From: Candidatus Scalindua sp. SCAELEC01
Lineage (GTDB): Bacteria > Planctomycetota > Brocadiia > Brocadiales > Scalinduaceae
Assembly (NCBI GenBank): GCA_004282745.1
Contig: SHMT01000010.1
Location: 1-64,000 of the forward strand
Direction of reading: 5' to 3'
Length of the DNA: 64,000 nucleotides
Shown here: positions 6,238 to 26,965 of the stretch, one piece after another
How the letters are laid out: every line of letters begins with the position of its first letter
Position numbering within the stretch: position 1 is the first letter of the stretch
The notes under the pieces: model-generated
What the model was told of the DNA's origin: nothing
Seen by the model: the letters and a program-made list of their open reading frames with translations, nothing else
The model's database searches: none
Made by a program: the position numbers and the translations under genes

Positions 6238-6385
6238 GTGCTTGAATGGAACCCCCTGTGGTTGAACGAGAACTGCCCAGATGTACTCATTAGAAAAAGA
6301 TTTATAGAATTTCTGGGCAGGAGTTTACTTGAAATTTTGATTTTTCGATTGAACAAAACCGGCGGCTTAGTAATACTTAGGACCC
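6238..6385. repeat. Long direct repeat, copy 1 (left of hicBA)
   Basis: This segment and 7330-7475 align over about 150 bases (GTGCTTGAAT, CGAGAACTGCCCAGAT, GAATTTCTGGGC, CTTGAAATTTTGATTTTTCGA and CTTAGTAATACT shared; roughly 78 percent identity by eye). Its left end equals the outer end of family A elements, and TACATA (6232-6237) before it fits the TANNTA target. It runs into a family B end (TAGGACCCAGG) at 6384. Confidence 0.75.
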
Positions 6386-14890: not shown

Positions 14891-15002
14891 TTTGTGGTTA
14901 AAATAAACCTCCCAACTGGAGCGTTGCCGTTAGAATGACGCAGCCCTCAAGCCCTTAAATGCGCAAGTGGTCGGGAACCCTGAACTATAGGAACATCTGA
15001 AT

Positions 15003-15434
15003 ATGTTACAACGTTTCCTCATCACATTCTGTATCGTGGTTTCACTCGTCATTGTCTTTTCCGCAATTGTGACCCAAAAACGTGAGAAAAGGAGGAGTCT
15101 TGAATCACAACTAAAGACTCTCTCAGAAGAGGTTGCATCGGCAAAGGAAAAAAACTCTCTGCTTACTCAGGAAACTGAGGCAATCGCCAATGACCCTATA
15201 CAGGTTGAGAGAGTAGCAAGGGAGAATTTCGGGTATGCCAAACCGGGAGAAATCATCTACAAAAAATATAAATTTGAAATTTCTGAGCCCAAAGAAGAGG
15301 TTGTCAGTGAGACAAGCTTTGTAAGTAAGCTGGATTCGTTCTTATTTGACGGCCCCTTCCCCTGGCAGGTACCTTTAGGAATAATTTCGATAGCATCAAT
15401 TTTTTTACTTTTTTCGTATAAATATGCGCGTTAA
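15003..15434 (+). CDS. FtsB/DivIC-family septum formation protein
   Basis: A 143-residue protein: one N-terminal membrane helix (residues 5-22), a coiled coil (about 27-62, LESQLKTLSEEVASAKEKNS), then the family motif DPIQVERVARENFGYAKPGE. FtsB/DivIC proteins bridge early and late divisome components. Unusually, residues 122-140 form a second hydrophobic helix near the C-terminus, which ordinary FtsB lacks. It overlaps proA by 11 bases. Being next to eno mirrors the eno-ftsB pairing of many Gram-negative bacteria. Confidence 0.85.
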   Translation: MLQRFLITFCIVVSLVIVFSAIVTQKREKRRSLESQLKTLSEEVASAKEKNSLLTQETEAIANDPIQVERVARENFGYAKPGEIIYKKYKFEISEPKEEVVSETSFVSKLDSFLFDGPFPWQVPLGIISIASIFLLFSYKYAR

Positions 15435-16677
15435 AGATTATGTCAACAGAGTCGTATCAGATGCAGAAAAAGCATCGCTCTCTATAGCTACGGCCAGTAG
15501 TTCTTTGAAGAATGCCGCACTGGAACAGATAGCTCAGAATCTGATCAACGCTAAAGCCACCCTTATGAGAGAGAATGAAAAAGATATTCATGCTGCTGAG
15601 AGTGCAGGTTTATCAATGGCTATGATTGACAGGCTAAGGCTGACAGAATCCCGAATAGAAGAGATGGTAGACGGTATTCGTCAGGTCATAAACCTGAGCG
15701 ACCCTGTTGGAGAGATAATGGAAGGAAAACTTCGGCCGAACGGATTGCAGATACAAAAGGTCAGGGTGCCCATAGGCGTGATCGCCATCATCTACGAATC
15801 CAGACCAAATGTTACCGCTGATGCCGCATCGCTCTGTTTAAAGACCGGTAACGTAACCATACTTCGAGGCGGAAAAGAATCTATCTTCTCCAATCTTGCC
15901 ATCTATCGACAAATAAGTTCTGCTCTTGAACGCGTCGGCATGGATAAGAACGTTATACAGGTAATTGAAACCGCCGATCGTGAAGCCGTTAACTACCTCC
16001 TTAAGGCCGACGAATTTGTCGACCTCGTAATCCCGAGAGGTGGTGAGGGATTGATACGAAACGTGGTAGAGAATTCAACTATCCCCGTTATTAAACATTA
16101 TAAGGGGGTATGCCACACCTATGTCGATGAGTATGCCAACCTGGACATGGCACGGGATATCTGCCTCAATGCCAAGACACAGCGCCCTGGCACCTGCAAT
16201 GCGATGGAGACAATGCTGGTACATGAAAAAGTTGCAGAGAAATTCCTTCCCGATGTACACCGTGTCATGTCAGAGGCGGGTGTCGAGTTGCGAGGGTGTG
16301 GACTGAGCCGCGCAATTCTCCCCGATATACGTCCAGCCACTGAAGAGGACTGGTCAGAAGAGTATCTGGAGAAGATCCTCTCTGTGAAGGTTGTATCTTC
16401 CCTTGAAGACGCCATCAACCACATATCATCCTATGGCTCTTCTCACTCCGATGCCATCGTTACGGAGCTCATCTCACATGCAAAGAGGTTTACGGATGAA
16501 GTTGATTCTGCTGCCGTTTACGTAAATGCGTCAACACGATTCACCGACGGGTATGAATTTGGTATGGGTGCCGAGATCGGTATCAGTACCGACAAACTTC
16601 ACGCCCGAGGTCCAATGGGACTTAACGAACTCACTTCATACAAATATGTCGTATATGGTAACGGACAGATACGGTAG
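15424..16677 (+). CDS. proA: Gamma-glutamyl phosphate reductase
   Basis: A 417-residue aldehyde dehydrogenase-fold enzyme that reduces gamma-glutamyl phosphate to the semialdehyde in proline synthesis. IYESRPNVTADAASLCLKTGN, LRGGKESIFSN, VIPRGGEGLIRNV and the catalytic Cys in RPGTCNAMETMLVH are diagnostic. FTDGYEFGMGAEIGIST closes the active site. The first codons overlap the preceding ftsB-like gene. proB is not in the window. Confidence 0.97.
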   Translation: MRVKDYVNRVVSDAEKASLSIATASSSLKNAALEQIAQNLINAKATLMRENEKDIHAAESAGLSMAMIDRLRLTESRIEEMVDGIRQVINLSDPVGEIMEGKLRPNGLQIQKVRVPIGVIAIIYESRPNVTADAASLCLKTGNVTILRGGKESIFSNLAIYRQISSALERVGMDKNVIQVIETADREAVNYLLKADEFVDLVIPRGGEGLIRNVVENSTIPVIKHYKGVCHTYVDEYANLDMARDICLNAKTQRPGTCNAMETMLVHEKVAEKFLPDVHRVMSEAGVELRGCGLSRAILPDIRPATEEDWSEEYLEKILSVKVVSSLEDAINHISSYGSSHSDAIVTELISHAKRFTDEVDSAAVYVNASTRFTDGYEFGMGAEIGISTDKLHARGPMGLNELTSYKYVVYGNGQIR

Positions 16678-16854
16678 GATTCTTATCCGAGATTTCAGAA
16701 ATCCACTCCACATTTGTAGCGAGTGACAATCCATATCTAACCAGGACTAGCCAGAGCTAAACAGGAGTTAATAAATTACAAAACTCAAAATTCAAATCTC
16801 AAATTACAATGCCCCCCTCTATATTCATTACAGAAAAAGATTGTTAGATTCTGC

Positions 16855-16883
16855 TTGACATTTAAAGTAGAATGAAAGTTAAT
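16855..16883 (+). promoter_or_regulatory. Weak promoter candidate before the lipoprotein gene
   Basis: TTGACA (16855-16860) with GTTAAT 17 bases later, just ahead of the small lipoprotein gene. The -10 box matches only four of six positions. Confidence 0.3.
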
Positions 16884-16890
16884 AATTCTC

Positions 16891-17157
16891 ATGAGAATGG
16901 TACTGCCCCTCGTAGTAGTTCTAGCGTTACACTGCGGGTGTTCACCTATGAGTAGATACCGGGTCTCTTCTACACCGGTTACACAGATGAGTCGTGACGC
17001 GCTGATCAGAGATTACGCAAAGACCTTACATATCTGTATCCTGTTACGAGAGGATCTGAAAAACTTGAATGAAGAGCAGATATCAGCGTTGGTAGATGCA
17101 CAAGTAAGACTCATTGAATTAAAAAAAGAGAAATCATACAGAGGTATATATCCATAA
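16891..17157 (+). CDS. Small putative lipoprotein
   Basis: An 88-residue protein with a signal sequence MRMVLPLVVVLAL ending in the lipobox-like LHCGCS, so Cys17 (or Cys15) could be lipidated. The mature part is a short helical segment rich in charged residues (REDLKNLNEEQISALVDAQ). I recognise no family. It is isolated between proA and fumarase; a family A/C composite repeat follows. Confidence 0.6.
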   Translation: MRMVLPLVVVLALHCGCSPMSRYRVSSTPVTQMSRDALIRDYAKTLHICILLREDLKNLNEEQISALVDAQVRLIELKKEKSYRGIYP

Positions 17158-17172
17158 TTTTTTATTTTCTAT

Positions 17173-17407
17173 CAAGTTAAACTAAAGCTACCCATCTACT
17201 GCGTTGCTGTAATAATTTCGTAATCCTCACGTACTTGAGTACGTTCCGGTTACGTCATTATTACGCGCCTTGTATACTAAAACCGATTTGGTTTTAGGGT
17301 TTAAAAAAAACCAAAGCTTGGTGAAGGTATACTCGCTCAATTTTATCTCGGATATTATCCGAAAACTATTATGAGATGAGTATATCTGAGCAGTTTTAGT
17401 TCAACTT
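17173..17407. repeat. Family A relative split by a family C element
   Basis: Left part CTACCCATCTACTGCGTTGC through TTACGCGCCTTGTA, right part TCTGAGCAGTTTTAGTTCAAC. Joining the parts restores the family A order GCGCCTTGTA-(C/T)CTGGGCAGTTTTGGTTCAA. The outer ends form CAAGTT/AACTTG. Confidence 0.85.
17275..17382. mobile_element. Family C element (108 bp) nested in family A
   Basis: Starts TACTAAAACCGATTTGG and ends GAGATGAGTA, with TA on both sides (17273-17274 and 17383-17384). Internal hairpins AAAACC/GGTTTT and CTCGGAT/ATCCGA. TA duplication is the mode of IS630/mariner-type transposases. Confidence 0.88.
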
Positions 17408-17451
17408 GAGGGTTTACGTCAAACAATAAAATTATAAGGCAAACTAGAATA

Positions 17452-19059
17452 ATGGTTGAATTCACCTACGAGGAAATGTTCCCTCTTAACAAAGATACTA
17501 CCTCTTTTCGCTTATTATCAAAAGAGTATATCTCCGTAAAAAAATTTGACGGCAACGATATCGTTGTCGTAGACCCGAGAGGCCTTACGCTACTTACGGA
17601 GCAGGCATTTAAAGATGTATCCCATCTGTTGAGGTCGGCGCATCTTAAATCTTTAACAAAGATCCTCTCGGATCCTGAAAGTTCCGATAACGATACCTAT
17701 GTGGCCCGTGAATTATTAAAAAATGCGGTTATTGCGGCGGAAGGCCTTTTCCCCATGTGTCAGGATACCGGGACCGCCATCATAATGGGTAAAAAGGGAC
17801 ACCAAATCTGGACAGGGGGTTCTGATGAACTGGCGATTTCAAAAGGGGTATTTAACGCTTACACAGAAAACAATTTCCGCTATTCACAGAATGCGCCATT
17901 GACGATGTATGAGGAAGTCAATACGGGCTGCAATCTGCCCGCTCAAATTGAATTGTATTCTACCAAAGGGGACGAATACAAGTTTCTGTTTATTGCTAAA
18001 GGGGGCGGTTCTGCAAACAAAACCTATCTTTATCAGGAGACAAAGGCGATATTAGATCCGGAAAATTTAATGCATTTTATGGAGGCTAAGATGAAGAGTC
18101 TGGGTACCGCAGCCTGCCCACCCTACCATCTTACCTTTGTCATAGGGGGATTGTCCGCCGAAATGACCCTCAAGACTGTGAAATTGGCATCTACCGGTTA
18201 TCTAGACACCCTTCCCACAACGGGAAGCCAACAAGGCCACGCATTCAGAGATGTGGAGATTGAAGATAAGGTACTAGAAATTTCCCGGACACTTGGAATC
18301 GGAGCACAATTCGGAGGGAAGTACTTCTGTCACGATGTCAAAGTGGTCCGCCTTCCAAGACACGGTGCATCATGTCCCGTTGGAATCGGCGTTAGCTGCA
18401 GCGCAGACAGAAACATAAAAGCCAAAATAACCCGTGATGGAATTTTTCTGGAACAACTCGAAACTGAGCCTGCAAAATATCTCCCTCAGGTTGAAGGTGT
18501 TGATACGAAATCTATCCCTATAGATCTGAATCAACCGATGAGTAAAATCCTGGCTACCCTTGATAAATATCCGATTGCCACCCGTCTATTACTTACCGGA
18601 AATATCATAGTAGCACGGGACATAGCCCATGCAAAACTGAAAGAACGAATTGACCGCGGAGAAGGACTACCGCACTATTTCAAAGATCATGTCGTATACT
18701 ATGCAGGTCCGGCAAAAACACCTCACGGATATGCCTCCGGATCATTCGGCCCTACCACTGCAGGAAGGATGGATACCTATGTACCTCTCTTCCAAAGGCT
18801 TGGAGGTTCCATGGTAATGCTTGCAAAGGGAAACCGCTCAAAGATGGTTTCTGAGTCGTGCAAGAAATTCGGAGGTTTTTACCTTGGTTCCATCGGAGGA
18901 CCTGCTGCCAGGCTGGGCAGAGACTGTATTACCAATATTAAGACTTTAGAGTATCCTGAACTCGGGATGGAAGCAATATTTATGATAACGGTAAAAGATT
19001 TCCCCGCTTTTATTATTATCGATAATAAAGGGAATGATTTTTTTGAAAAGTTGTTGTAA
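17452..19059 (+). CDS. fumA: Class I fumarate hydratase (Fe-S type)
   Basis: A 535-residue one-chain class I fumarase, which interconverts fumarate and malate using an oxygen-labile 4Fe-4S cluster. Cluster Cys candidates are in [19 protein letters not shown] and CPVGIGVSC. The C-terminal beta domain has [23 protein letters not shown] and [25 protein letters not shown], the signature of the fumarase/tartrate dehydratase beta part. The use of an oxygen-sensitive enzyme fits an anaerobic or microaerobic host. A repeat-rich gap lies upstream. Confidence 0.95.
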
Positions 19060-19434
19060 CAAACCTGGCCGAGTTAAAACCAAAAAGAACTATATTTCAT
19101 ATCTGTTCTTGTCTGCCCAGATTGTTAAATGAAAACCTGCACTTTCCAAACTTTCCCTTATTACGATAAAGAAAAGTAAAATATTTTTCATTCATCCAAA
19201 CAAGGTGTAAAAATAGGGATCCCTTTCTGAGTCTACGCCCTCCACTCGTACCAAGGGTGCAGGAAAAAATAACTTGTTGTTTTATCGCACTCAGGTTTAT
19301 GTCAGATTTGGTCGATCTGACCGACCAGTACCGCAGGTGTAGCTTAAGCTACAGCGAGGATGCTGCGAGTGAAGAGCGGTCGAAGGTGACCTGAAAATGA
19401 GATGCGAGAACAACAAGTTATTCTTTCCTGGGTC
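19060..19434. other. Gene-free interval after fumarase
   Basis: Nothing coding is seen up to 19254. From 19255 to 19435 it is a full-length family B element. Confidence 0.5.
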
Positions 19435-19435
19435 C
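19255..19435. mobile_element. Family B element, full length (about 180 bp)
   Basis: Ends GGTGCAGGAAAAAATAACTT and, inverted, GGACCCAGGAAAGAATAACT; the inverted repeats extend to about 45 bases including TTGTTGTT. The middle has GCGAGGATGCTGCGAGTG and GTCGAAGGTGACCTGAAAATGAG. The element at 61125-61318 shares this internal design. Its right end supplies the stop of the ORF remnant at 19435-19620. Confidence 0.78.
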
Positions 19436-19620
19436 TAAGCGTCAGTTCCCTGCCTGATTATCTCTAAGATCGACTTTTCAGCCATCGTCATGTCTCCTGC
19501 ATGGGAGGCGTCCACTCCTCGTTTGTCTCTATTGTCTAAATCCTTCTTAATAAATGGTCATAAATTCACTAGTTGCTCTCCAAAAACCACCATGAACCTA
19601 TGATGCTCCTCCTGCTTCAT
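19435..19620 (-). pseudogene. Degraded coding remnant
   Basis: The - strand from an ATG at 19618-19620 reads MKQEEHHRFMVVFGEQLVNL, an in-frame TGA, then DLDNRDKRGVDASHAGDM and EKSILEIIRQGT up to a TAG contributed by the family B end. The codon-like reading on both sides of the TGA suggests a decayed gene. No family is recognised. Confidence 0.35.
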
Positions 19621-19715
19621 TGTAGGTGTCTTTAAAATGCTGCATCGTCGAAAATATCAATAGGAAATAATCTTTTTACCTCTGTCGGAATATCGATATT
19701 CAAGCATAGGCTCTT

Positions 19716-20396
19716 TCAATCCAAACCGATCAGTCGGACGTTGCCCACGATGAGTTCTAGATCTTTTCGCCCGTTTTGCCTGCGTGGATGAAAATATCGT
19801 CGAGTGCTTCACCGCTACGGATCCTGGTTTGTCCACCGCCCACTTGGATCGACGCTTCAGTCCACTTCCCAAAAACCGGTTTGGGTATTGTTAGCGGCAG
19901 TTGTTGCCTTGGGTCATGCTGAATACGAACCTCGACTGCCCGACCGAGTGACATTGCACCCTTGTCCACCGGAATATAGACATCCACACATGTCTGGAGT
20001 CCTTTCCCGGGAAGATCCCCCCGTGAGTGCTACACGGATTTCCGGCAAACGGGCATAAAGGAGGTCGGCCAGACGACGCGTCCCATCAGAGTCCTCTTCA
20101 TGTCGGATAGATATGATGACGTCGTCCTGACGGTGTTGAGTTTTATGGTTTTCGTAAACCTTATGCAGCGTCCTGAGTTCATCGTCCTTGCCTTCAAAAT
20201 CCTTGCCAAGCATGAACGTCTGGGGTGTAAGAAGGCTGTTAGCCTGGTTCCTGGATTTCACGGGCAGGCTTCCAAGCAGGTCGTATACCTTTTTTCCTAA
20301 GACATTTGATGCCATACCGGTTCCGAAGGGAGCCCCTCCCACCATAAAACCTGTCATGATTGCAGTAAAAAGCATTCTCTCTGCTATCATGTTCAC
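19716..20396 (-). pseudogene. Frameshifted hypothetical gene (two lesions)
   Basis: Begins MNMIAERMLFTAIMTGFMVGG (hydrophobic N-terminus, perhaps a signal anchor) and continues to RERTPDMC. There the frame changes: the continuation VYIPVDKGAMSLGRAVEVRIQ is in another frame (about 19980). A second lesion near 19757 (GAAAAGATC, probably one A lost) is needed to reach DLELIVGNVRLIGLD and a TGA at 19716. All three segments look coding. The protein family is unknown. The start lies 20 bases after a GTTAGGC core, so it sits like a cassette gene of the second integron. Confidence 0.65.
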
Positions 20397-20407
20397 ATTC
20401 CTAATGT

Positions 20408-20578
20408 TTAGAGTTGCCTAACGAATAAGGTTAGATTGTGTGAGCAACGAACCACGTTAACAAACTTTTCAAAGTCTCTTAAAATATTTGCAGGCAATGG
20501 GGCCCGTCCTTTTACAGACTTAATAATAACACTTTCTACTTTTCCCTCTTTAATTATTAATTCTGCCTTAGACTCTTT
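20408..20578 (-). pseudogene. Gene fragment after the TPMT gene
   Basis: An open stretch of 57 codons without a good start reads ESKAELIIKEGKVESVIIKS and GRAPLPANILRDFEKFVNVV before TAA at 20408-20410. It overlaps the end of the methyltransferase gene in a different frame and crosses the short attC-like junction at 20416-20436. Probably the 3' part of a lost gene; family unknown. Confidence 0.4.
20416..20436 (-). other. Very short attC-like junction
   Basis: On the - strand ATCTAAC-CTTATTC-GTTAGGC: R''-like and R'-like cores only 7 bases apart, without the usual stem. ATCTAAC complements the GTTAGAT at the 5' end of the TPMT unit (21730-21736). Confidence 0.55.
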
Positions 20579-21254
20579 CCCTTAATATTTGCCATGGACG
20601 TGAAGCGGTTCGATAAGAGTCATTTAATAGCAACCAAACATTCTCTTTTGCCGCGCATATTCCCTTCAAGCCGCCAGCAACATCCGCGTTCTCAATGCAG
20701 CTCAAATGATAGACGCCACTATAATGCTGATTGACTTCTTTGGCGTCTATTGAAAAAGGAGGCCCTGCCATCAATTTTTGGTCGTACTCGAAGCAAATGA
20801 CAAACTGCGGCGCTCTATTCGTAATCTGCATCAAGTGACTTGTATATTGTCGCCGCATGACTTCGGGCAGTGCCACAAGGGCTGCTCGATCGTAGATAGC
20901 ATCTACCGGCCCAAGGATAGTTGCTGATAAATCAAAGATATTGCCAACAAAAACATCGATGTTATTCCCGGTGTAATGCTTCAATTTTCCAGCTTCCGTT
21001 ACCTCGGGCTTCATGCCAAGTTCAAGAAATAATTCCTCAATGGCAATTTCGCTTAGTTCAGTCCCAGCCACACGATAGCCATTCGAAAGCAGCCAAGCGA
21101 TATCAAGTGTTTTCCCACACAACGGCAGAAAAACACGACTGCCTCGCTCCAAGGAAAGCTCTTTGAAACATTTCACCAGTAATGGGTTGGCTTCCGTCTG
21201 ATGGAAGGCAATATCCTTAATCTGCCACTTTTGAAGCCAAAAATATGGATCCAT
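20568..21254 (-). CDS. tmpT: Thiopurine S-methyltransferase family protein
   Basis: A 228-residue SAM-dependent methyltransferase of the TPMT family. Characteristic are WLQKWQIKDIAFHQTEANPLL at the N-terminus, RVFLPLCGKTLDIAWLLSNGY (SAM-binding, with the family-typical PLCGK), GTELSEIAIEEL, YDRAALVALPEVMRRQY and a C-terminal CFEYDQ/GPPFSID region. Bacterial members methylate thiols, selenium or tellurium compounds. It fills a cassette-like unit of the second integron; family A and a 21-bp inverted repeat lie between it and brnA. Confidence 0.92.
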   Translation of the reverse strand: MDPYFWLQKWQIKDIAFHQTEANPLLVKCFKELSLERGSRVFLPLCGKTLDIAWLLSNGYRVAGTELSEIAIEELFLELGMKPEVTEAGKLKHYTGNNIDVFVGNIFDLSATILGPVDAIYDRAALVALPEVMRRQYTSHLMQITNRAPQFVICFEYDQKLMAGPPFSIDAKEVNQHYSGVYHLSCIENADVAGGLKGICAAKENVWLLLNDSYRTASRPWQILRERV

Positions 21255-21269
21255 ATCTACACCTTGACC

Positions 21270-21636
21270 AATCGGGGGACACCATACCTATTTAGTGTTT
21301 GAACGAAAACTACCCATCTACGGCGTTGCTGTAACAATGACGTAATCCTCACGTACTTGAGTACGCTCCGGTTACGTAATTATTTCGCGCCTTGTACCTG
21401 GGCAGTTTTGGTTCAAACACTGAGTTTTCGTTCACGCACTATTTATTTGTTTTTCATGGGTTTTCGTCCTGATTTTTTAAGCTTGAGAAACACCCCTCTA
21501 TAGATTTCTCAAGGCGGGCCAAAAACTAACATTACTAAAAACGTCTTTTGTCCACGGTTTTCCCTTTGTGTTATACCAAAATATTTAGCTTTTGTATCCT
21601 TATATGTCAATTAAGTAGGTATGGTGTCCCCCGATT
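21270..21636. repeat. Perfect 21-bp inverted repeat pair, 367 bp apart end to end
   Basis: AATCGGGGGACACCATACCT at 21270 is repeated inverted as AGGTATGGTGTCCCCCGATT ending at 21636. Such GGGGACACCATACC repeats look like the ends of a lost insertion sequence or REP-type element; the segment between contains no transposase now, only a later family A insertion. Confidence 0.8.
21289..21445. mobile_element. Family A element, intact 145 bp with 6-bp duplication
   Basis: Element 21295-21439, GTGTTTGAACGAAAAC to TTTTCGTTCACGCAC, flanked by TATTTA at 21289-21294 and 21440-21445. The left duplication overlaps the final bases of the 21-bp inverted repeat, showing it inserted at that repeat's edge. 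Confidence 0.92.
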
Positions 21637-21729
21637 AGTAAGCCACGAAAAATAGTAGTAGTTGAGTACGATGTCACGACATCATGAAACTCTGAGAAAG
21701 TTGCAACCTCACTCTTTTTCATAATATTG

Positions 21730-21748
21730 ATCTAACACGGAGTTAGCC
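21730..21748 (-). other. Very short attC-like junction
   Basis: On the - strand GGCTAAC-TCCGT-GTTAGAT. The TAA stop of brnA lies in GGCTAAC, as in ordinary cassettes. GGCTAAC complements GTTAGCC at 22374-22380. Confidence 0.58.
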
Positions 21749-22045
21749 GGCTTTTTTTATTGCAATTTTTTTGGTGGCCTTAGATTTTTTGGCCATGGTT
21801 TGTTCCTTTTGAATACCCTTTTCCAACAATAATTTAATTGTTGCTTGATATGGAATATCCAAATTAGTGGAATAAGCCCTTATGTTATTATACAATTCTG
21901 TTGGAAGCCGTATACTGATTACTTTTGTCGGTGCATCCTTTGGTAATTTAATACCCAAATCTGATAATTTTTTTGGTTTATTTTTATCAATATATTCAGA
22001 AGTATCATTTACATCGTATTCAGTGATTTCTTTTTTATTCTTCAT
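21743..22045 (-). CDS. brnA: BrnA-type antitoxin
   Basis: A 100-residue protein starting at the ATG 22043-22045 (an upstream in-frame start would lie deep in brnT). VISIRLPTELYNNIRAYSTNLDIPYQATIKLLLEKGI is a ribbon-helix-helix motif typical of BrnA/CopG antitoxins, preceded by an acidic, disordered toxin-binding region (YDVNDTSEYIDK). A Lys/Ala-rich tail follows. It overlaps brnT by 11 bases. BrnA neutralises BrnT and represses the operon as a complex. A typical stabilising passenger of integron arrays. Confidence 0.9.
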   Translation of the reverse strand: MKNKKEITEYDVNDTSEYIDKNKPKKLSDLGIKLPKDAPTKVISIRLPTELYNNIRAYSTNLDIPYQATIKLLLEKGIQKEQTMAKKSKATKKIAIKKAG

Positions 22046-22316
22046 AAATCTTCCTCTCCTTTTTCGATGCTTTCCTGGCTGAAATGATTCTGATTTTTTT
22101 ATTTCTCTTTGTAAATGCAATCATCAATATTTGGTTATACCCACTTTTACCAAAACAAATCCACCTTTGTTCTTTTTTTGTGCTGTGCTTTAAATCATCA
22201 AATATTTTTAAATTTTCATCGAAAAAGGTCGATTCTGCTTCTAAAGCCGAAATTCCATGTTTTTCCTCATTTTTTTGGATATTCCATTGATCCCAATCAA
22301 ATTGCAATTCATCCAT
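22035..22316 (-). CDS. brnT: BrnT-type ribonuclease toxin
   Basis: A 93-residue BrnT: FDWDQWNIQKNEEKHGISALEAESTFFD is the signature start, and ISARKASKKERKIYEE the signature end with the conserved Arg and Glu. BrnT is a RelE-like RNase that stops translation under stress. Toxin-first order with an overlapping brnA is the usual arrangement for this system. It lies directly after the GTTAGCC core at the start of the second integron's array. Confidence 0.93.
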   Translation of the reverse strand: MDELQFDWDQWNIQKNEEKHGISALEAESTFFDENLKIFDDLKHSTKKEQRWICFGKSGYNQILMIAFTKRNKKIRIISARKASKKERKIYEE

Positions 22317-22373
22317 TTCTACAATTTACATTATTTATATTGTAGTGTCAAGCGCTACGGTTTTTTTTAGTCC

Positions 22374-22391
22374 GGCTAACATGAATTAGGC
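22374..22391 (-). other. Attachment-like junction next to the truncated intI
   Basis: On the - strand GCCTAAT-TCAT-GTTAGCC. GTTAGCC is the complement of the 3' core of the brnTA unit, so this is probably the attI/first-cassette junction. Confidence 0.5.
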
Positions 22392-22398
22392 GTACTAA

Positions 22399-22463
22399 TA
22401 GCCGTCTTATTTTACGGCTACTAGTAGATCTAATACGCTTGTAGGCTACTTATTATACGGCTA
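22399..22463. promoter_or_regulatory. Two related palindromes upstream of truncated intI
   Basis: TAGCCGT-cttatttt-ACGGCTA (22399-22420) and TAGGCTACTTATTATACGGC (from 22442) are similar inverted repeats about 40 bases apart. They could be integrase-binding sites of an attI or an operator. Confidence 0.4.
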
Positions 22464-22601
22464 TATGGGCATATAATAACGTTTATTGACCGGTTGCCGA
22501 TAGAGCAATAAGTAGCTGTCAAAAAATATTAATTTTTAACCTTAATGAGTGAAAACTCTTCTGTCAAGAGGAAAAAAATTGCTAAAAAAGAGGCATGATC
22601 T

Positions 22602-22946
22602 ATGGACAAACCTAAAATCCTTGACCAGGTGCGTGACGCAATTCGAGTAAAACACTATAGCATGAGAACCGAAGAGGCTTACGTTTATTGGGTTAAACGT
22701 TTTATCCTTTTTCACGAAAAACGGCATCCATTACAGATGGGAGAACCTGAAGTCAGTAAATTTCTTTCTCATCTTGCCGTTGTGGGAAATGTATCTGCTT
22801 CTACTCAGAATCAGGCATTAAGCGCTCTTTTGTTTCTCTATCAAGAAGTTCTTAAACAAGAAATTGGCTGGATTAACAATGTAAAGAGGGCAAAAAAGCC
22901 CTCTCATTTACCGGTTGTTCTTACCAAAAAGGAAGCAAATGGGTAA
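22602..22946 (+). pseudogene. intI: Truncated integron integrase (N-terminal part only)
   Basis: 114 residues match the core-binding domain of IntI: VRDAIRVKHYSMRTEEAYVY, HLAVVGNVSASTQNQALSAL, then PVVLTKKE, where the catalytic domain should begin. The ORF ends 4 codons later, and a family A element starts 30 bases further on. No catalytic Arg, His or Tyr remains. It is a normal-type IntI, without the extra N-terminal domain of the integrase at 4833. GAGG upstream supports the start. Confidence 0.92.
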
Positions 22947-22969
22947 AAAGTACACTGGATGGAATTTGA

Positions 22970-23126
22970 TACTTAGTGTTTGAACGAAAACTACCCATCT
23001 ACTGCGTTGCTGCAATAATTTCGCAATCCTCAAGTACAATTGTACGTTCCGGTTACGAAATTATTACGCGCCTTGTACCTAGGCACTTTTCATTCAAACA
23101 CAGGGTTTTCGTTCAGGCACTACTTA
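22970..23126. mobile_element. Family A element, intact 145 bp with 6-bp duplication
   Basis: Element 22976-23120 flanked by TACTTA on both sides (22970-22975, 23121-23126). Nearly identical to the copy at 56509-56653 (one difference seen in 145 bases), so both are recent. Confidence 0.94.
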
Positions 23127-23159
23127 TAATATGATGATGTGCAATACCACAATATTGTA

Positions 23160-23324
23160 TACTCATCTCATAATGGTTTTCGGATAAAATCCGAGATAAA
23201 ATTGAGCGAGTAAAGTCCTCGGCGTCTTTTGTCCGGGGATACCTTCACCAAGATTTGGTTTCCAACCCGCCCGGCCTGTTAGCCGTTCGGACGGGTAAAA
23301 CCGAAAACCAAATCGGTTTTAGTA
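23160..23324. mobile_element. Family C element (165 bp)
   Basis: TACTCATCTCATAATGGTTT to GGTTTTAGTA, TA at both sides (23158-23159, 23325-23326). Contains inverted arms CCAAATCTTGG-type and a GC-rich middle with CCGCCCGG. Opposite orientation to the copy at 17275. Confidence 0.85.
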
Positions 23325-24052
23325 TATTTGAATGGTGAATAGTAATGGACTCATATGATATTATGTTAAGGGCATTACATTTTAAAATCGTACCTTATTA
23401 CATGACCATTGTATGTAATCCCCTATCCACCTAACATTTGAATTTCTTTATCAAATACCAGGTATTCTGATGTCACCTTTCGACAAACATCCGGCGTTGA
23501 CACTATTTCTTCGAGTCTGAGAGATCCTCGAAACACATCAACACAAGGTCTATTTTTTTCCTTAATATGATTATTGACTTAAATAGAAACGAATTATACA
23601 GTTTACAGGCAATATCTACTATTACGGGTTTATCCTCATCTCTTACGATCAAATACCGTACCTAATAGAGATGAACCCCATATTACCATCTGTGCTTTCG
23701 TAAAACCCTTCCAAAATCAACACCCCCTTCCATTGCTTTACCAGTAGATTTCATTTCCGTCCCCAAAAGAGTATCTGTTCGCTGACATCTTATAAAGGGA
23801 AACACAGCTTCTTTCACTGCAAATTTAATATTGATCAGACCAAGTACATTTAGTTCTCAAGATAACGCTTGTGTTTGTGACTTTATATTATCTATAATCT
23901 CCTCATTCCATAGAATGAGGTGGTAATATCAGCGAAGCTTTTTAATAAAAATTAAAGCCAATCCTTTCATGAAAGGAAAGTTTGTCTACCAACAATTTAA
24001 ATCTATTATACACATTTTTCTATCTAATAAGAATTTAAGAAAGAACTTAAAC
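23325..24052. other. Interval without an intact gene
   Basis: Between the family C element and the CHAT gene. Contains the carB remnant (23575-23853); the rest shows short open stretches on the - strand such as SLRLEEIVSTPDVCRKVTSE (ending TAG at 23423-23425), too short to assign. Confidence 0.5.
23575..23853 (-). pseudogene. carB: Remnant of carbamoyl-phosphate synthase large subunit gene
   Basis: The - strand reads [20 protein letters not shown], then [20 protein letters not shown], both strong CarB signatures (VKEAVFPF and GPEMKSTGEVMG in intact proteins). LINIKFAVK runs straight into EAVFPF, so about 50 residues that separate these motifs in CarB are deleted. A frameshift near 23695 leads to [16 protein letters not shown] and another to VRDEDKPVIVDIACKLY, again in CarB order. 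It is a decayed C-terminal fragment with one internal deletion and two frameshifts. Confidence 0.85.
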
Positions 24053-26965
24053 ATGAAAATAATTACCCTAACCTTATCATTCTATTTGTGTGTCTTGTTT
24101 ATTTGTCCACTTATCTCAGCCCAAGAGCATCAACTGGCAGATGAGTATCGGCATAAAGCTCAAGATTTAGAGGAGCAGGGTCTCTATCTTGAGGCGGCAC
24201 AGTTGTATGAAAGGTCTTTACAGGGAGAAAGGAAAAGTCCTGGTCCTCGAAAGGAAAAGCTGGTTACCGAAATAAGTCAGACCGGATACTACTACTTTTT
24301 GGCTGGTCAATATTGCAAGGCAGTTACGTTTTTTGAAGAGGCAATGGCTAAAGCAAAAAAGCTGGAAAAAAAGGACCAAGTTGCCAACTGCCTCAACTAT
24401 TTTGGTCTCGTTTACACGTCCGTGGGTCAGTATGAAAAGGCCATCAAATTTTATGAAGAGGCAATAGCGATAGAGAGAAAATTGGGAATGGATGATAAGA
24501 TTGCCATTCTGACCAACAATATAAGTGAAGCATACATATCCTGGGAAAAGTATGATAAGGCCATCGAGTATCTTGAAGATGCAATAGAGATAGATAGGAA
24601 GTTGGGAATGAAAGAGAAGGTCGCTCTTCGACTCAACAGAATTGGGGAGATTTATCACACCCGGGGTCACTATAAGATGGCAAGCGAGTTTTATGATGAG
24701 GCTTTAACTATTCAGAGAGAACTACCTCATGAAAAAAAAATGCCCTCTTTTCTAATTAATCTTGGCAGAGTTTACGAAGACCAGGGTCAATATGAGAAAG
24801 CCAACGAGTATTACGGAAAGGCTTTAACCTTAAACAGAGAACAGGGGCAAGAAGGTAAAGCCGCCACCTGCCTCAACAATCTTGGGAGAATTTGTGAAGT
24901 CCAAGGTCAATATAAAAAGGCCATCGGGTTTTATGATGAGGCTTTAACCATCAATAGTACTCTGAGGAAAGGAGATCAAGTTGTTGCCTCTTTTAATAAT
25001 CTTGGGAGAGTCTCTGAAATCCGAGGTCACTATGAGAAGGCCCGTGTCTATTATAACGGCTCTTTAACGGTAAATAGAGCGTTGAAACGAGAGGAAAATG
25101 TCGCCGTAAGCCTGAATGCTCTTGGAGATGTTTACCAAGCAGAGCAACAATACGCCAAAGCCATTAGGAGTTATGAGGAGGCTTTAGATATAGACAAAAA
25201 ACGGGGAGAAGAGGCGGATGATGCCAAGACTTCAAAAGAACTTGATATGGTTTACACCTTTTACTGGAGCAAACATGATAAGGTAATCAAACCTTATGAA
25301 GAGGTTTTCGCTTTTAAGAGCAAACTTAAGTGCGATGCTCAAATCATTAACGATCTCAACAACCTTGGCAGAGTTTATCTATTGCAAAAAGAATATAAGA
25401 TATCAATCAAATATTTTTTAGACTCTCTCGCCATAATAGAAAAACTATCCAAAACAAAAACGTTTAAGAAAACAGCGCGAGAGATACGAAAGAACTTTCT
25501 TGCAATCCAGCTAGACACGTATCAATGGCTGGTCAATGCTTATATATCTGACAACGATATTTTTCCCGCCTTACAGACGGTTGGACTCAGCAGGGCCACA
25601 ATCCAGGCTGAAAGATTTTCCATCAAGAAAGGGTCAATAAGACTTCCCGAGATAAAACAGATACAGCAAACACTTGGGGAAGATGCCATAATACTGGTTT
25701 ATGCGTATGTCAACGTAAGAGATTTTCTCCTTTTTACGATTACACAGAAAAAGGTTTTATGCAAAGTGGTGTCATGCGGCCCTTTTATCCAATCGTTTCT
25801 CGATACATACGAGACAGAAATAGAAACCTTATTAATCAACCAGCGAAGTTTAAGTGGAAACAAGAGTGATTTAGATAATATTGTCAATTATTACGGATCT
25901 TTATTAAGGGGTCCTTCATTACAAAATACCCCCCCCCTACAGACAAGTAGTGATAACGTTAGAGCAAACCACGATGCAAATGCCAGGAAAATTGGAAGAG
26001 ATTTATATGGATTACTTATCAAGCCGATAGAGACACAATTGGATGGCAAAAACAACCTCGTTATTATTCCAGATGGTATCCTGGCCGCTATACCTTTTGA
26101 GACCCTTTTTGACGGCAATGGACGGTATCTGATAGAAGACTATAACATTAGTTATATTCAATCGCTGTACACGCGTGAACTCGTTAAGAAACGAAAATAC
26201 CGTGAAAAACGTAGACCATTGCTGGCATTTGGAGGGGCCACTTACAATGAAGGAACCTACGAAGTTGATGTAATAGAGAACGATGCCCAGTTGTCCTTAT
26301 TGAAAAAAAGTATCTATTCTGATCTTGAAAATGAGATCTCTTTAAGGAGCTCTTATGGTGCTCTCGGTATTGGTCCATGGGCTGATCTACCCGACACATT
26401 GAATGAGGTCAATAATATCAAGAGGGTAGCCGACAAGTCAAATTTCTTTACCGGAAGGAATGTCACGGAAAGGCACGTAAAAGATCTCTCCAGAAATGGA
26501 ACTTTAAATAATTACAAAGTACTCCATTTTGCAACACATGCCCTCGTTGTACCGGAGGTGCCAGAACTCTCGGCTTTGGTTTTATCACACGTTGAAAAAG
26601 AGCGTGAAACAGAGGATGGTTATTTGCGTATGGGGGAGATTGCAAAGCTGGAACTTCAGGCAGACTTAATAAACCTATCTGCCTGTGAGTCAAGTTTAGG
26701 TAATGTCTTCGGAAGCGAGGGGTTTCTAGGGCTCACCCAATCCTTTCTCTTTGCCGGAGCTAAAGCTGTATCAGTATCATTATGGCGAGTATCAGATGAA
26801 GCTACTTCGAGGTTTATGGTGAAAACATATGAAATGGTTCAAAACGGAGACATCAGCTATGCAAACGCTGTCGTATCTGTAAAACGACAATGTATCAGTG
26901 GTAACTTAGGAGAGAAATACAGATCTCCCTATTACTGGGCACCCTTTGTCTATTATGGGGATTAG
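24053..26965 (+). CDS. Exported TPR-CHAT domain protein
   Basis: 970 residues when started at the ATG at 24053, chosen because MKIITLTLSFYLCVLFICPL then forms a signal peptide ending at ISAQ; an earlier start at 23969 would add 28 residues. Residues 30-440 are about ten TPR units (GQYEKAIKFYEEAIAIER type). The C-terminal 330 residues are a CHAT caspase-like domain: VIIPDGILAAIPFETLF, HFATHA with the predicted catalytic His829, and LSACESS with Cys878, then FLFAGAKAVSVSLWRVSD. CHAT proteins are proteases or scaffolds; a periplasmic role is inferred. Confidence 0.9.
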   Translation: MKIITLTLSFYLCVLFICPLISAQEHQLADEYRHKAQDLEEQGLYLEAAQLYERSLQGERKSPGPRKEKLVTEISQTGYYYFLAGQYCKAVTFFEEAMAKAKKLEKKDQVANCLNYFGLVYTSVGQYEKAIKFYEEAIAIERKLGMDDKIAILTNNISEAYISWEKYDKAIEYLEDAIEIDRKLGMKEKVALRLNRIGEIYHTRGHYKMASEFYDEALTIQRELPHEKKMPSFLINLGRVYEDQGQYEKANEYYGKALTLNREQGQEGKAATCLNNLGRICEVQGQYKKAIGFYDEALTINSTLRKGDQVVASFNNLGRVSEIRGHYEKARVYYNGSLTVNRALKREENVAVSLNALGDVYQAEQQYAKAIRSYEEALDIDKKRGEEADDAKTSKELDMVYTFYWSKHDKVIKPYEEVFAFKSKLKCDAQIINDLNNLGRVYLLQKEYKISIKYFLDSLAIIEKLSKTKTFKKTAREIRKNFLAIQLDTYQWLVNAYISDNDIFPALQTVGLSRATIQAERFSIKKGSIRLPEIKQIQQTLGEDAIILVYAYVNVRDFLLFTITQKKVLCKVVSCGPFIQSFLDTYETEIETLLINQRSLSGNKSDLDNIVNYYGSLLRGPSLQNTPPLQTSSDNVRANHDANARKIGRDLYGLLIKPIETQLDGKNNLVIIPDGILAAIPFETLFDGNGRYLIEDYNISYIQSLYTRELVKKRKYREKRRPLLAFGGATYNEGTYEVDVIENDAQLSLLKKSIYSDLENEISLRSSYGALGIGPWADLPDTLNEVNNIKRVADKSNFFTGRNVTERHVKDLSRNGTLNNYKVLHFATHALVVPEVPELSALVLSHVEKERETEDGYLRMGEIAKLELQADLINLSACESSLGNVFGSEGFLGLTQSFLFAGAKAVSVSLWRVSDEATSRFMVKTYEMVQNGDISYANAVVSVKRQCISGNLGEKYRSPYYWAPFVYYGD

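Follow-up and report, generated by a model that had tools for sequence, protein, structure and literature searches.

The small hairpin repeats BOX, RUP and SPRITE of pneumococci have been reported to insert into one another (PMC3049150). One of them, RUP, is ~107 bp long, is thought to be mobilised by IS630-Spn1 and targets TA (PMC2229807). Nesting of such repeats has thus already been reported, and the case described here is a tidy, ordinary example rather than a new kind of element. It concerns two repeat families, termed A and C, in an uncultured bacterium that, judging by the names of the genomes nearest to it, probably belongs in or near the anammox order. The window, i.e., the whole stretch of DNA analyzed, comprises 64,000 nucleotides (C22:1-64000) of a genome of 4.59 Mb in 104 contigs (G000). 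The sole other genome of the genus compared is G001, and the fumarase adjoining the locus shares 87% identity with its G001 counterpart and 79% with the one in the nearest named genome, Candidatus Anammoxibacter OFTM134.

Results

To the base, as the original prediction had it, the family A repeat is interrupted at a TA by an element of 108 bp running TACT...AGTA. On the forward strand, the left arm of the host (17171-17274) ends with the first copy of the TA target (17273-17274), where the nhmmer match to the A left arm also stops. The family C core follows (17275-17382, two hairpins, z = -8.2 for the fold of a solo relative), then the second TA (17383-17384) and the right arm of the host (17385-17429, aligned with C88 and full A copies). 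The junction accordingly reads TTACGCGCCTTG-TA-[TACT...AGTA]-TA-TCTGAGCAGTTTTAG, and family C with both TAs occupies 17273-17384. The nested stretch first proposed, 17173-17407, is real, but the host is slightly longer, with ends estimated at ~17171 and ~17429 by alignment to full A and uninterrupted A2 copies.

Removal of C together with one TA restores family A, as had been claimed: the flanks joined at a single TA give GCGCCTTGTA|TCTGAGCAG, matching uninterrupted paralogues (G000:C88), and the full joined host reads GCGCCTTGTATCTGAGCAGTTTTAGTTCAA. The uninterrupted paralogue G000:C88:98429, among the closest intact copies in the genome, reads GCGCCTTGTATCTGGGCAGTTTTAGTTCAACTTG. While the common form of family A is TACCTGGGCAG, this paralogue carries TATCTGGGCAGTTTTAGTTCAACTTG, the form of an older subfamily, A2, which is the better comparator because one apparent mismatch vanishes with it. 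Judging by this alignment, the host in the window is a degenerate copy of A2, a subfamily older than the common A form. A blastn search with the nested stretch returned 45 further matches in G000 (46 including itself), so the nesting in the window is not due to chance; among the best 40 of the 46 matches, eight span A, C and A. The window also holds an uninterrupted family A copy with the intact GCGCCTTGTACCTGGGCAG order (21291-21443, approximate ends, forward strand) and, outside A, a solo family C copy (23158-23326, reverse strand) whose 169 bp include an extra hairpin module.

Several other features were observed in the neighborhood. A short ORF at 22602-22946 (+) encodes just the SAM-like N-terminal domain (PF13495, E 2.7e-32) of a tyrosine recombinase and looks truncated, since it stops just ahead of a family A copy starting at ~22969. 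An ordinary toxin-antitoxin pair, consisting of a BrnT-type toxin (PF04365) and an overlapping CopG-type antitoxin ORF (PF12441), lies at 21743-22316 (-), and a TPR-CHAT protein of 998 amino acids, combining TPR repeats with a CHAT domain at the C terminus (PF12770, E 1e-62), is encoded at 23969-26965 (+). A further dispersed palindrome family of ~40 bp, CTTAGGRTCCAGGAAAGAA...TTCTTTCCTGGA, is found at 6376, 19392, 30872, 31749 and 56664, the last copy lying just past a family A copy. A search of positions 15000-25000 against Rfam matched nothing meaningful.

Full family A copies without C are 149 bp long in 30 of 32 cases, carry the terminal inverted repeats TAGTGNNTGAACGAAAAC at both ends and fold as a single long hairpin (z = -6.3). 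Identical TANNTA sequences flank 35 of the 38 full copies, composites included, on both sides. Being short, non-coding and of high copy number, with terminal inverted repeats and a 6-bp TANNTA duplication, family A behaves as a MITE. Allowing up to three mismatches, the intact A junction GCGCCTTGTACCTGGGCAGTTTT is found at 301 places in G000 and 10 in G001, and A-part matches in the order, scored at the best places per genome, were confined to these two genomes of one genus. An end-pair scan of 1.2 Mb of the genome revealed no convincing transposase between A ends that could serve as an autonomous partner.

The basic form of family C measures ~112 bp including both TAs and comprises the same two hairpins, and some copies bear additional hairpin modules. 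Covariation in the hairpins is weak, with 3 of 20 pairs changed on both sides, and the only structural claim is the folding. The ends read TATACTAAAACC/GATGAGTATA, and their terminal match is limited to TATACT/AGTATA, ~6 bases. Solo copies have a TA at each end and unrelated flanks. The second hairpin gives 171 matches in G000 and 112 in G001 with up to two mismatches, and within the order C is present in four genera, in 14 of 62 genomes. Since it occurs without A in other genera, C is independently mobile. Where C in the window is flanked by two TAs, the uninterrupted paralogue of its host has a single one. Thus, family C, which is short, non-coding, dispersed and of high copy number and duplicates TA, likewise behaves as a MITE, and the mobility ascribed to it in the original prediction holds. 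A solo C with identical flanks was found at G000 C18:132498 and G001 C26:230827; this copy was either inherited from the common ancestor or exchanged.

We searched G000 for an IS630-family element with matching ends and found none; an IS630 origin of C is not supported, and C is therefore not classed among the IS630-derived MITEs. The three IS630/Tc1-type DDE_3 matches in this genome are all fragments, their fetched flanks hold neither A nor C, and no DDE_3 or Y1 transposase bearing A or C ends turned up in the searches. A copy of C lies near each of two Y1 loci, L254 and L257, but with ~170 C copies in the genome this proximity is not evidence.

At least 13 C-in-A nestings at the same TA were counted in G000, nine in one orientation (the window, c1, c14, c18, c44, c99, c101a, c101b and c101c) and four in the other (c16, c28, c41 and c101d). 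A further nesting, c18b, is truncated and has the orientation of the window group. G001 has one nesting, likewise at this TA, oriented as in the group of four and adjoined by a local deletion. The hot spot is not absolute: at G000:C18:117305, C occupies another TA of an A copy, close to its right end. A pattern match at G000:C57:5971 was discarded, as it sits outside A. The copy counts derive from sequence patterns and ~1 Mb of fetched stretches, and the nesting searches were guided by the composite and its junction, so that rarer positions are possibly under-counted. At G000:C101:121146-123572, three composites lie within 2.5 kb, two pointing one way and one the opposite way.

A target profile of C was built from 50 solo C sites, all nested sites being excluded (leave-one-out AUC ~0.74). 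With 6 bases per side, all six A copies scored had the nested TA in first place among their 8-17 TAs, and it stood at the 96-99.8th percentile of the TAs of the window. This TA came first in five of six A copies with 4 bases per side and in four of six with 12 bases per side, where it ranked fourth of 14 in one copy; the lead of this TA thus narrows as the flanks widen. The chance of seven of eight independent events falling on one TA of ~12 is ~2e-6, the number of events itself being estimated. As the profile of solo sites ranks this TA first, the hot spot is largely explained by the ordinary preference of C together with the abundance of A.

Six intact composites (c44, c99, c101a, c101b, c101c and c1), at separate sites, have kept the full A ends and are surrounded by TANNTA duplications, four exact and two one base off. 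All of these except c1 share a derived C end, GAGTGTA, and the matching stem change TACACTC; the exact C-end 30-mer ending in GAGTGTA occurs five times in G000, every time in a composite. The simplest reading is that the composite with the shared end was amplified through the ends of A. Within these five composites, near-identical C copies sit between A arms of different A subgroups, and recombination between copies therefore probably also occurs. The C copies of c1, c14 and c18b form another related group. Taken together, some composites appear to have moved as units, outside the lineage of the window. The original prediction had named the composite as one conserved unit at unrelated sites in many genomes as the observation that would speak against it; the six composites do represent such units, but in one genome and in lineages other than that of the window.

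The presence of both C orientations at the same TA requires more than one insertion. Had a single C-in-A composite arisen once and given rise to all nested copies, that of the window included, one could readily account for the derived C end exclusive to five composites, for the six intact composites flanked by their own TANNTA and for the second related group of c1, c14 and c18b. However, besides the two orientations, the tree of 74 C copies, a short alignment in which many forks are left open, rejects the nested copies as a single clade (p-AU 7e-6), rejects the one-orientation subset as well (p-AU 7e-4) and contains at least seven nested/solo switches. Identity between the window C and the solo copy C9:67938, with which it groups with support of 100/98, is 98.2%, versus 90.2% at most with any nested C. 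Placing it with just the five composites that share a C end gives a borderline result (p-AU 0.053). Orientation and tree largely refute the single origin, which we regard as very improbable. Since the nested copies do not form one clade and the window C is nearest to a solo copy, we infer about seven or more independent insertions at one site, i.e., at least about seven separate C insertions at one TA of A in this lineage; the nesting in the window is most likely an independent insertion into a pre-existing A2 repeat.

Two further explanations were weighed against repeated insertion. The near-identical C copies between A arms of different subgroups in the five related composites would fit a process in which recombination or gene conversion of the arms, and not transposition, shuttled C among A copies, but this process cannot place C in opposite orientations at one TA, nor can it bring into A the kind of C that, like the one in the window, is otherwise found solo, and we consider it a poor candidate with little chance of being correct. 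Alternatively, the composite could be ancestral and the uninterrupted A copies could have arisen through precise loss of C, given that interrupted and uninterrupted forms differ by exactly C and one TA, as excision would leave. The ~301 uninterrupted junctions versus 13 nestings, the two orientations of C and the presence of C without A in other genera all argue against such a loss, which seems extremely unlikely.

According to the original prediction, the nesting proved C to be a later arrival than this A copy and gave a relative age for both. The locus does look like an insertion into an existing A2 repeat, but nesting alone is no proof of the order here, because the target duplication of the host is degraded and G001 offers no clean empty site. 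The window C differs by 1.8% from its nearest relative, and the host A by 16% (84% identity) from its nearest uninterrupted relative. If both mutated alike, C would have come later than the host A at this locus. As C is present in four genera and A in one, the nesting dates events and not families, and the breadth of the families across the order, wider for C than for A, is opposite to the order at the locus.

An uninterrupted A copy at the same locus in a relative, which the original prediction had proposed to look for, did not emerge. The proA-fumarase interval of G001 measures 4.7 kb, differs in gene content and contains neither A nor C nor a homologue of the small upstream ORF, and in Ca. 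Anammoxibacter OFTM134 proA is not at the corresponding place. For c41, the second nesting in an A2 copy, no unique flank was found when the orthologous site was sought in G001.

Discussion

Our results strongly favor an explanation in which A and C are unrelated MITE-like families, C inserted repeatedly at one TA of A, the nesting in the window is independent and some composites were amplified; we consider it highly probable. The nesting itself, the TA duplication, the two orientations, the polyphyly of nested C and the target duplications around composites are shown by the sequences. Family A (~149 bp, one long hairpin) duplicates a 6-bp TANNTA target, and family C (~112 bp, two hairpins) inserts at TA and duplicates it, both probably being moved by transposases acting in trans. 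C lands repeatedly in A at CTTG-TA-YCTGG because this is the best match within A to its preference and because hundreds of near-identical A copies are available. At the window locus, A had presumably settled before C arrived in a single independent insertion into an old A2 copy, whereas elsewhere the interrupted A probably remained movable, and a composite of ~260 bp was amplified via the ends of A.

It is conceivable, though we put it forward tentatively and with some doubt, that A acts as a genome-wide landing pad, with one preferred TA in every copy collecting C, and that some of the filled copies spread as mobile double elements, taking C with them. If this were true, new compound repeat families would keep arising. 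Independently of this idea, the locus provides a worked case in an uncultured bacterium in which the target preference of solo copies predicts where an element lands within another repeat, and in which independent insertion can be separated from later amplification of composites. It also shows that the order of nesting at a single locus is no guide to the age order of families.

Among described systems, BOX, RUP and SPRITE resemble A and C in the mutual nesting of small hairpin repeats, and differ in their sequences and host; the passages considered mention neither recurrent insertion into a single TA of the host repeat nor amplification of composites (PMC3049150). The best functional match for C is RUP, with ~107 bp, TA ends and targets, short terminal repeats and no ORF (PMC2229807). 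C is unlike RUP in that no matching IS630-type element was found in G000, and in its two hairpins, optional modules and terminal identity of ~6 bp. The Correia/NEMIS repeats of Neisseria are, like A and C, small TA-flanked repeats, known both as a short form and as a form carrying an internal insert; the insert in Correia is a 50-bp internal sequence (PMC2229807), whereas that in A is an independently mobile element.
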